A stretch of 64,000 bases of DNA from Pedobacter chitinilyticus (lineage in GTDB: Bacteria > Bacteroidota > Bacteroidia > Sphingobacteriales > Sphingobacteriaceae): positions 537,096-601,095 of the forward strand of contig NZ_QMHN01000003.1 in the NCBI RefSeq assembly GCF_003313385.1, read 5' to 3'. Shown piece by piece: positions 61,440-64,000 of the stretch. The stretch's first letter is position 1. Each line of letters starts with the position of its first letter. The position numbers and the translations under genes were made by a program. The notes beneath the pieces are model-generated. The model did not search any database. It was given only the letters and a program-made list of their open reading frames with translations, and was not told where the DNA came from.

Positions 61440-61518
61440 GTTTGTTACGAAGTAGCTTTTAATAAATAAACAATTGTAAATGAGGTGTTTTTTGTTTGGT
61501 GTTAAATTATTTTTAAAT

Positions 61519-61553
61519 TTTGTTGAATAAATGAAATATTCGCTCTATATTTG
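61519..61553 (+). promoter_or_regulatory. tRNA-Asp promoter
   Basis: TTTGTTG (61519-61525) as -33 region and TATATTTG (61546-61553) as -7 region, with 20 bases between the second TTG and the TATATTTG. This is a clean Bacteroidota promoter ahead of the tRNA. Confidence 0.75.
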
Positions 61554-61592
61554 CATCACCAAAACGGAAAACGCTTGTTTAACGTTGCGAAC

Positions 61593-61666
61593 GGTTCGGT
61601 AGTTCAGCTGGTTAGAATGCCGCCCTGTCACGGCGGAGGTCGCGGGTTCGAGTCCCGTCCGGACCG
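61593..61666 (+). tRNA. tRNA-Asp (GTC anticodon)
   Basis: 74 bases. Acceptor stem GGTTCGG/CCGGACC with discriminator G, D-loop AGCTGGTTAGAA, anticodon stem CCGCC/GGCGG around CTGTCAC with anticodon GTC, and T-loop GGGTTCGAGTCCC. No encoded CCA. A terminator follows directly. Confidence 0.96.
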
Positions 61667-61668
61667 CA

Positions 61669-61929: not shown

Positions 61930-62871
61930 ATGAATGTAGTTTCTCCTTTAGCCAATTGGATTCCTTATCGCTTAGAATATATAGACCAGGATTGGTTGGT
62001 GCATTGGCTATATCTTGGCGACAAGCGGATGGATGATCCTTTTTTTGACGAGACCATACGTTATTGTAGATCGAAGCAAAGAAGAGTGTCGAGGTTTGAG
62101 AGCAGCAGTGGTGCCGCATTGCTTAAGGCTAATGATATGACGGCGCTCAAACCAAAGGCATTTGTTTTTCACGTTTCCAGATGCGGATCTACATTATTAA
62201 GTCAGGCATTTGCGCAATCTGAAAGCTGTATCAGTATTTCGGAAGCACCTTTACTGGATGAAATTCTAAGGTCTAATGAGCATGATCCTAGTGTTAGTAA
62301 TGCACAACGTGAGGAGTGGTTTAAAGCAGCATTGAGCTGGATGGGACAGTTAAGAACAGGTAGGGAATCTTCCTATATCATTAAGCTCGACAGCTGGCAC
62401 ATTCATTTTTATGGCTTGCTGCGTGAATGGTTTCCAGAGGTTCCTTTTTTCTTCCTAACTCGGCGCCCGGCGGAGGTTTTAGCTTCACACAAAAAAATGA
62501 AGGGGATCCATATGGTTCCTGGATTGGTGGACCCATTGCTTTTGAAAATGAAAGGATGGGATGGCGAGGCTGTTAAATGGGATTTTAATCTCTTTGCTGC
62601 TGGAGTATTGATGCATTACTACACTGAATTACGGGGAATTTTGGAGCTTGGCTCTAGATTTAATCGCTTTTTTGATTATAGCGAAGGTGCTAAGGAAATG
62701 CTGGAATCTTTTAGTGAGTTTACGGGAATTGAGCTGGAAACGAAAATGTATGAACGGTTAAAGTTCCACAGTAAATCAGCGGGCCTTACTTTTGATACTG
62801 AGCCTAAAGTGGAAGATGTTTCAACAGTGGCTTGTCGGGAAGCTTATAAGGAATTTATTAACGCCATCTAA
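61930..62871 (+). CDS. sulfotransferase family protein
   Basis: 313 residues, cytosolic (no signal). The 5'-phosphosulfate-binding loop of PAPS-dependent sulfotransferases is visible as FHVSRCGSTLLSQAF (80-94), and the 3'-phosphate site as FFLTRRPAEVLASHKK (174-189) with R178/R179 and S187. It should move sulfate from PAPS to a hydroxyl or amine of an unknown acceptor. The APS kinase gene begins 5 bases after its stop, so donor supply and use are coupled. The acceptor could be a secondary metabolite, a lipid or a peptide. First gene after the tRNA-Asp terminator. Confidence 0.85.
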   Translation: MNVVSPLANWIPYRLEYIDQDWLVHWLYLGDKRMDDPFFDETIRYCRSKQRRVSRFESSSGAALLKANDMTALKPKAFVFHVSRCGSTLLSQAFAQSESCISISEAPLLDEILRSNEHDPSVSNAQREEWFKAALSWMGQLRTGRESSYIIKLDSWHIHFYGLLREWFPEVPFFFLTRRPAEVLASHKKMKGIHMVPGLVDPLLLKMKGWDGEAVKWDFNLFAAGVLMHYYTELRGILELGSRFNRFFDYSEGAKEMLESFSEFTGIELETKMYERLKFHSKSAGLTFDTEPKVEDVSTVACREAYKEFINAI

Positions 62872-62876
62872 TTTTT

Positions 62877-63413
62877 ATGGGATTGATCTTTCAATTTTGT
62901 GGGCTTTCGGGGGCAGGAAAAACAACGCTGGCCAATGCGCTGTCTGATGAGTTGCAGGCTAAAGGGTATCGAGTGAAGGTGATTGATGGAGATGTTTACC
63001 GGCAGACTTTATGTAAGGACTTGGGGTTTAGTCGGGCAGATCGGATCGAAAATGTAAGTAGACTGGGTATTTACGCGGCATCTTTGCGTGAGGAGTTTGA
63101 CTTTATATTTATTGCGGTGATCAATCCTTATGAGGAAGGTAGGGAAGTAGTTAGACGTAGCTGCTGCGCCAAGCTGGTTTGGATAAAATGTGAAATTGAG
63201 ATACTGATCAATAGAGATACCAAGGGACTTTATCATAAGGCATTGCTCCCAGACGGTCATCCAGATAAAATCTATAACCTTACGGGTTTGAATGATGTTT
63301 TTGAAATACCTGTTGCTGCGGATCTGGTTATCGATACCGATTTGCTAAGTATTGAAGACAGTTTGCTTACTGCTATTGATTTTATAGTTGGCGATTTAAT
63401 GTTAGATTTATAA
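62877..63413 (+). CDS. cysC: adenylylsulfate (APS) kinase
   Basis: 178 residues. It phosphorylates APS to PAPS. P-loop FCGLSGAGKTTLA, then IDGDVYRQTL and the signature LGFSRADRIENVSRLG; a DTKGLYHKAL segment near residue 120 closes the APS site. It is slightly short at the C-terminus but complete in motifs. Neither ATP sulfurylase nor APS/PAPS reductase is visible here, so its neighbour the sulfotransferase, rather than cysteine synthesis, is its likely client. The next gene begins one base after its stop. Confidence 0.93.
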   Translation: MGLIFQFCGLSGAGKTTLANALSDELQAKGYRVKVIDGDVYRQTLCKDLGFSRADRIENVSRLGIYAASLREEFDFIFIAVINPYEEGREVVRRSCCAKLVWIKCEIEILINRDTKGLYHKALLPDGHPDKIYNLTGLNDVFEIPVAADLVIDTDLLSIEDSLLTAIDFIVGDLMLDL

Positions 63414-63414
63414 T

Positions 63415-64000
63415 ATGGCTTCTTCTCATTTAAAATTAGCGCTGACTTATGATGTGCAGCAACTCCGTCGGGAGCTAAAACATTGTTTGGGTAAACAATG
63501 GCCATTGCATTTTAATAATTTTGATTACGAGGGCGATTGGAGAAGTATTTCTCTGCGTTCGGCAAGTGGCAATATGGATGATATTTTCGCACATTCTGGA
63601 GATATGAGTTATGTGGATACGCCGTTAATGGCTGAAGTAGATTATATCAGGTCTGTTGTAGATTCTTGGAAATGTGAAAAAGAGTCGGTTCGTTTATTGG
63701 CGCTTTCGCCTGGGAGCGTCATCAAGCCACACAAAGATCGAGGATGTTCTTATCTGGATGGAAGCTTTAGAATCCATATTCCCATTCTGACTAATAAATC
63801 GGTGCTTTTTACGGTTGATGGAAAGGAATTATTTTTGGATGAAGGAACCTGTTGGTATATGGATTTTGGTAAGACGCACCATATTGAAAATAGGGGGGAG
63901 ACGAACCGAGTTCATTTGATTATGGATTGTATTAGAAATGAATGGACCGATGCTCTTTTTGCTAAAAATGCTTACGATTTTGAACTAGATCCAGTAGAAA
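63415..64000 (+). CDS. aspartyl/asparaginyl beta-hydroxylase-like dioxygenase, cut at the window end
   Basis: An open frame starts at ATG 63415, one base after the cysC stop, and runs off the window, giving 195 residues without a stop. It contains IKPHKDRG (103-110) followed by FRIHIPI (118-124) and later FGKTHHIENRGE (151-162), the double-stranded beta-helix pattern of the Asp/Asn beta-hydroxylase family with H106 and H155/H156 as likely iron ligands. Such enzymes use iron and 2-oxoglutarate to hydroxylate a peptide or small molecule. Directly coupled to cysC, so it forms one operon with the sulfotransferase. The C-terminus is unseen. Confidence 0.85.
   Translation, partial: MASSHLKLALTYDVQQLRRELKHCLGKQWPLHFNNFDYEGDWRSISLRSASGNMDDIFAHSGDMSYVDTPLMAEVDYIRSVVDSWKCEKESVRLLALSPGSVIKPHKDRGCSYLDGSFRIHIPILTNKSVLFTVDGKELFLDEGTCWYMDFGKTHHIENRGETNRVHLIMDCIRNEWTDALFAKNAYDFELDPVE

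Follow-up and report, generated by a model that had tools for sequence, protein, structure and literature searches.

Bacterial tyrosine sulfation is known from the raxX-raxSTAB system of Xanthomonas, whose precursor RaxX has 60 residues (PMC6637879, PMC4216712). Reworking of the C-terminal part of a gene-encoded peptide is known from RiPP pathways, in which PflC/PosC perform an oxidative cleavage at ARMD in that part of the peptide (PMC12636437), and from the nitrilobacillins (PMC13060819). The locus of Pedobacter chitinilyticus that we analysed resembles both to some extent. It combines a PAPS-dependent sulfotransferase-like protein (ST), an adenylylsulfate (APS) kinase (CysC) and an Fe(II)/2-oxoglutarate dioxygenase (AspH), and its candidate target is a tail-collar protein (COL). 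As in raxX-raxSTAB, a dedicated bacterial sulfotransferase would modify a ribosomally made, exported protein; unlike there, the hydroxylase is coupled or fused to ST, the residue proposed to be modified is the last Asn of a COL of about 200 residues, and counterparts of RaxX, RaxA and RaxB were not seen. The likeness to the RiPP pathways lies in enzymes whose site of action is the C-terminus, or close to it, of a genetically encoded product, and HExxH enzymes can be 2-oxoglutarate oxygenases. In contrast to those pathways, the candidate substrate here, which occurs in up to three copies, is a fibre-like folded protein, no short precursor peptide could be recognised among the ORFs of at least 60 aa in the 10 kb downstream, and the unit includes a sulfotransferase and an APS kinase.

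The single proteins also have described relatives. AspH shares its family and Fe/2OG motif with human ASPH (PF05118) and L-proline cis-4-hydroxylase (4p7w). ASPH lacks the acidic iron ligand, whereas the AspH family has an invariant H-x-D, and a two-His iron site of the ASPH type does not fit AspH, in which D108 is invariant. The proline enzymes use a free amino acid, unlike the candidate protein target of AspH. The collar domain of COL, with its invariant H-x-H, is common to the short tail fibre gp12 of phage T4 and the tail fibre of cyanophage A-1(L); the structure model of COL has low confidence (pLDDT 71) and supports just a T4 gp12-like collar. Unlike phage fibres, COL is encoded by bacteria from several phyla; a giant surface protein is its neighbour, and other phage genes are missing nearby. 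The loci of relatives also resemble the SprB/SprF adhesin loci of the type 9 secretion system (T9SS) in Bacteroidota: they encode a giant protein of repeats that has a type B sorting domain, next to a PorP/SprF gene (TIGR04131, 68 vs 35, for the giant protein of L161; PF11751, 124 bits, in L120). No described SprB locus, to our knowledge, includes COL or the tailoring enzymes, and our search of the open literature found nothing on non-phage collar triplets with these enzymes. The parts are of known kinds, and their combination and predicted target appear to be undescribed.

The window, by which we mean the whole stretch of 64,000 nucleotides analysed (G000:C4:537096-601095), lies on a contig that extends 10.2 kb beyond it. 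As the preliminary description had it, ST, CysC and AspH follow a tRNA-Asp gene on the same strand with gaps of 5 bases and then 1 base, and the coordinates and strands agreed (Table 1). The same description let the operon run past the window, which was not borne out: AspH stops 107 bases beyond the window, at window-equivalent 64107 on the contig continuation, and the following gene (u173) is convergent to it, so the operon consists of ST, CysC and AspH alone. The trio may be translationally coupled, as had been suggested; in relatives, AspH and ST mostly overlap by 1-8 bases. Upstream of tRNA-Asp, window positions 61500-61570 are 81% identical to C9:117564-117634, perhaps as a shared tRNA promoter.

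Table 1. Features of the trio and of its surroundings (positions in the window unless marked L004).
Feature	Position	Strand	Basis or remark
tRNA-Asp (GTC)	61593..61667	+	ARAGORN; upstream neighbour, outside the system
ST, PAPS-dependent sulfotransferase-like, 313 aa	61930..62871	+	family scan, alignment
CysC, adenylylsulfate (APS) kinase, 178 aa	62877..63413	+	family scans
AspH, Fe(II)/2-oxoglutarate dioxygenase, Asp_Arg_Hydrox family	63415..64000 in window	+	whole protein 230 aa, L004:4511-5203
u173, small protein, 173 aa	L004:5213-5734 (window-equivalent 64117-64638)	opposite to AspH	GDxxHEAGH motif
5'-nucleotidase-like (UshA-like)	L004:6789-7742		Tat-type signal; recurs beside COL genes
Peripla_BP_6 fold protein	L004:7930-9129		without obvious signal peptide; conserved beside COL and formyltransferase
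Methyltransferase	L004:11899-12903		in the COL locus of the window genome

The earlier family calls for CysC and AspH were confirmed by the scans. CysC matched APS_kinase PF01583 (E 9e-37, 126.9 bits vs a cut-off of 21.1) and passed TIGR00455 (143.2 bits, cut-off 138.7), and AspH passed PF05118 (65 bits, cut-off 22.6). For ST the call stood only in part: its Sulfotransfer_3 score of 20.9 bits is under the Pfam cut-off of 27, so that by sequence it may at best be a divergent member, and the motifs SRCGST (in SRCGSTLLSQ) and R178...S186, which we take to be those that bind PAPS (5'-PSB and 3'-PB), are intact and invariant across ST and 19 relatives (20 sequences aligned). The invariant residues of AspH are H106-x-D108, H155 and R165, and this H-x-D...H...R pattern is kept in all 80 of the 80 relatives checked. 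The best solved-structure match of AspH is 4p7w (E 5e-20), and its closest solved relatives are proline hydroxylases. The substrate of such enzymes has a free carboxylate, which suits a C-terminal residue as the target of AspH. Phage records gave just three weak partial matches to AspH, and for this reason an identity as a phage gene is not favoured.

In the family sample of 201 genomes, AspH was found in 27 (a 28th match, a fragment, was left out) and ST in 24; every ST genome has AspH (24/24), the two genes are adjacent in nearly all of these, and 23 of the 24 have CysC. Thus the co-occurrence is far from rare, and the pairing of hydroxylase and sulfotransferase first proposed from the window was sustained. 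It is strengthened by fusions of AspH with ST in at least four Bacteroidota (L066, L167, L179 and L184), to which an apparent one in Diaphorobacter can be added. Other fusions join AspH to u173 (L070), CysC to PhyH (L063, L164, L165, L166 and L170) and a methyltransferase to AspH (L194). Across the loci of relatives the gene set stays the same, and its order and orientation are shuffled. AspH followed by ST is the commonest arrangement, and the window order ST-CysC-AspH is, to judge from the gene orders, a rearrangement of it.

PAPS is made by APS kinase and used by sulfotransferases to sulfate hydroxyls, and C-H bonds are hydroxylated by Fe/2OG enzymes. APS kinase is also a common enzyme of sulfate assimilation, and on this ground the trio could be read as ordinary assimilation or as a chance grouping. 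However, CysD, CysN and CysH are grouped on contig C2, away from the trio, and cysteine genes were absent from the contig stretch downstream of AspH. CysH passes the APS_reductase model (242.5 vs 235.3) and fails PAPS_reductase TIGR02057 (160 vs 254); it also passes PRK02090 and TIGR00434, general models named phosphoadenylyl-sulfate reductase. Because CysH is of the APS reductase type, cysteine synthesis should not need PAPS. CysC is the one APS kinase of the window genome, and a second, weak match is a 43-residue P-loop stretch inside a 448-aa frame. With a sole APS kinase and a cysteine route that runs through CysD and CysN to an APS reductase, sulfation is the best explanation for CysC, and the earlier view of it as a dedicated kinase stands. 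Ordinary assimilation was rejected by the location on C2 and the type of CysH, and the constant company and fusions of ST and AspH speak against chance, so that we regard either explanation as extremely improbable.

The genes downstream of AspH include u173, a PhyH dioxygenase, a formyltransferase resembling ArnA/Fmt and three COL proteins (PF07484, E 4e-23 to 3e-27), the first of them encoded about 5 kb from AspH. Beside the COL genes is a secreted giant MBG-repeat protein, whose gene is cut by the contig end. A prophage or tailocin would have more phage structural genes by the collar proteins, and none were seen near COL among the scanned L004 proteins. COL probably belongs to a surface fibre or an adhesin and would reach the surface, although it has no signal peptide. 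The GDxxHEAGH motif of u173 is invariant in its alignment (A5), and the protein has no Pfam or NCBIfam match. HExxH proteins can be peptidases or 2-oxoglutarate oxygenases (PMC12636437), and since the AlphaFold model of u173 (pLDDT 93) matched no solved fold (best E 1.2), it does not decide between the two. In the UshA-like 5'-nucleotidase the metal motifs are altered (TNDLNG, GANE and GHQN) and look degenerate by eye, and the protein is perhaps a pseudoenzyme. The Peripla_BP_6 protein, which is perhaps cytosolic given the missing signal peptide, is also found beside COL and a formyltransferase in Deinococcus (L144). Members of the methyltransferase family are found repeatedly in COL loci, both of Pedobacter and of Pseudoalteromonas (L140:12654-13961), and the one in L194 is fused to AspH.

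In three samples, AspH depended strictly on COL. COL was present in all 27 AspH genomes of the family, compared to 61/201 overall (p 7e-17), in 23/23 of the phylum vs 97/396 (p 1e-15), and in 11/11 among the Collimonas relatives in the Betaproteobacteria vs 41/191 (p 1e-8); all three p values ignore kinship. The phylum count of AspH leaves out a weaker match (G244, E 1e-28) in a genome without COL, and the betaproteobacterial count leaves out one partial match (G684). The dependence holds without linkage: in Flavobacterium all AspH genomes have COL, though the two are unlinked, and in most of these loci AspH has u173 as its constant partner, the pair adjoining a Dph6-like gene at a distance from COL and with no ST adjacent. 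Against the reading that COL is the target, some AspH-ST-CysC units of Chitinophaga and P. cryoconitis have no COL in the 10 kb of flank searched. L146 carries AspH, ST, PhyH, CysC and FMT on one strand behind COL, the giant protein and a SprF-like gene. COL loci that lack AspH keep COL and the giant protein, and often also PorP/SprF, the binding protein and the formyltransferase, which makes the trio an optional module within a broader COL locus. Plasmids of Aminobacter, Deinococcus, Comamonas and Spirosoma also carry three COL genes by the gene of a very large protein. In L069, L079 and L082 a collagen-like G-x-T repeat protein replaces the giant MBG protein at the COL locus.

The COL of AspH loci end in [F/Y]-P-x-R-N-COOH. 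This pattern was first spotted while listing those COL, and the loci concerned stay in the family part of our set; the phylum-wide COL loci were chosen by COL match, blind to their C-termini. In the joint set of 220 COL from 102 genomes, a terminal Asn is found in 91/105 COL of genomes with AspH and in 25/115 of those without it, and at least one such COL in 47/47 and 22/55 of the genomes, respectively. Among 571 features of the COL alignment, the terminal Asn is the one most strongly linked to AspH (phi 0.71, next independent feature 0.43). Many COL of AspH genomes are related, and Asn ends occur without AspH too, so the signal might come from a single COL clade of common descent that travelled with AspH by chance. 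Yet when the COL tree was built with the final six residues removed, 16 independent pairs on it gave 10.3 concordant vs 0.4 discordant (median p 0.002). Contrasts within one genus and within one genome point the same way: COL of G349, which lacks AspH, end in PSRS, and of the two COL loci in G476 the one linked to AspH ends in PSRN and the unlinked one does not. A replicate in the Betaproteobacteria, another phylum, is weaker but in the same direction (11/11 with AspH vs 8/16 without, p 0.008, ignoring kinship). We therefore consider chance ancestry quite unlikely.

AspH and the C-terminal Asn of COL are not coupled symmetrically. The Asn ends in 22 of the 55 genomes without AspH mean that the residue is not diagnostic of the enzyme, and it looks necessary, not sufficient. 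An exception is L192, which has AspH and ST and whose COL end in PPRG and PSPT. In genomes without AspH the last COL residue is mostly Ser (e.g. PSRS), Asn, Pro or Asp, and the residues other than Asn may track other tailoring enzymes. Because the terminal Asn follows AspH in Flavobacterium, where ST is not adjacent, it is AspH that seems to read the residue.

On these grounds we lean towards the view that the trio is a protein-tailoring unit. CysDN would make APS in trans, CysC would phosphorylate it to PAPS, AspH would hydroxylate the C-terminal Asn of the cell's own COL, and ST would most likely move sulfate from PAPS onto the new hydroxyl. The substrate missing from the preliminary description is probably COL, and its terminal Asn as the site, hydroxy-Asn as the product and the sulfate on that hydroxyl are what we infer. 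The earlier idea that a hydroxyl is added and then sulfated is thus supported as far as the pairing of the enzymes goes, and its second half, that this same hydroxyl receives the sulfate, is our extrapolation. COL, whose genes are next to that of the giant MBG-repeat protein, is probably a component of such a surface fibre or adhesin, whose tip or attachment the added negative charge would alter.

Instead of COL, the enzymes might modify the secreted giant protein with its repeats, or a collagen-like protein, and COL would be just a partner of it. Besides COL, the locus constantly includes the giant MBG/YDG protein, a collagen-like protein takes its place in the three loci named above, and the apparent AspH-ST fusion of Diaphorobacter is encoded divergently from an IPTL-CTERM surface protein, without a COL in the vicinity. 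Nevertheless, the C-termini of the giant proteins vary independently of AspH and hold no counterpart to the terminal Asn of COL. A REN end, noted in three relatives, was considered as a second match and fails generally. Moreover, the giant proteins have signal peptides, and those of Bacteroidota also have T9SS sorting domains, whereas PAPS and the enzymes are presumably cytosolic. A target of this kind is in our opinion unlikely. We think it similarly improbable that the trio makes a small molecule, in which case AspH would hydroxylate a free or carrier-bound amino acid, ST would sulfate it, and the product would decorate a lipid or sugar. This would agree with the free L-proline used by the closest solved relatives of AspH, with the ArnA/Fmt-like formyltransferase and with a cytosolic binding-protein-like gene that could hold a ligand. 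On the other hand, the labelled neighbours include no recurrent genes for NRPS, PKS or the synthesis of lipids or sugars, and a small-molecule role explains neither the dependence on COL when the genes are unlinked nor the terminal Asn.

If COL is the target, the last residue of P-x-R-N would be lost in proteomics, because trypsin cuts after the Arg, and the modification may have escaped tryptic surveys. We put forward only tentatively that a sulfated terminus on a surface fibre, made by a dedicated enzyme set in at least two phyla, represents a modification and a fibre system that were undescribed before. COL-type proteins are present in the 97 of 396 sampled Bacteroidota genomes mentioned above and public records annotate them as 'tail fiber protein' and nothing more. 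With the enzyme and the precise residue both named by a gene pattern, the nature of these proteins and the way they are made can be tested directly, and if the prediction is true, a C-terminal hydroxy-Asn, or its sulfate, would join the few known protein sulfations of bacteria.
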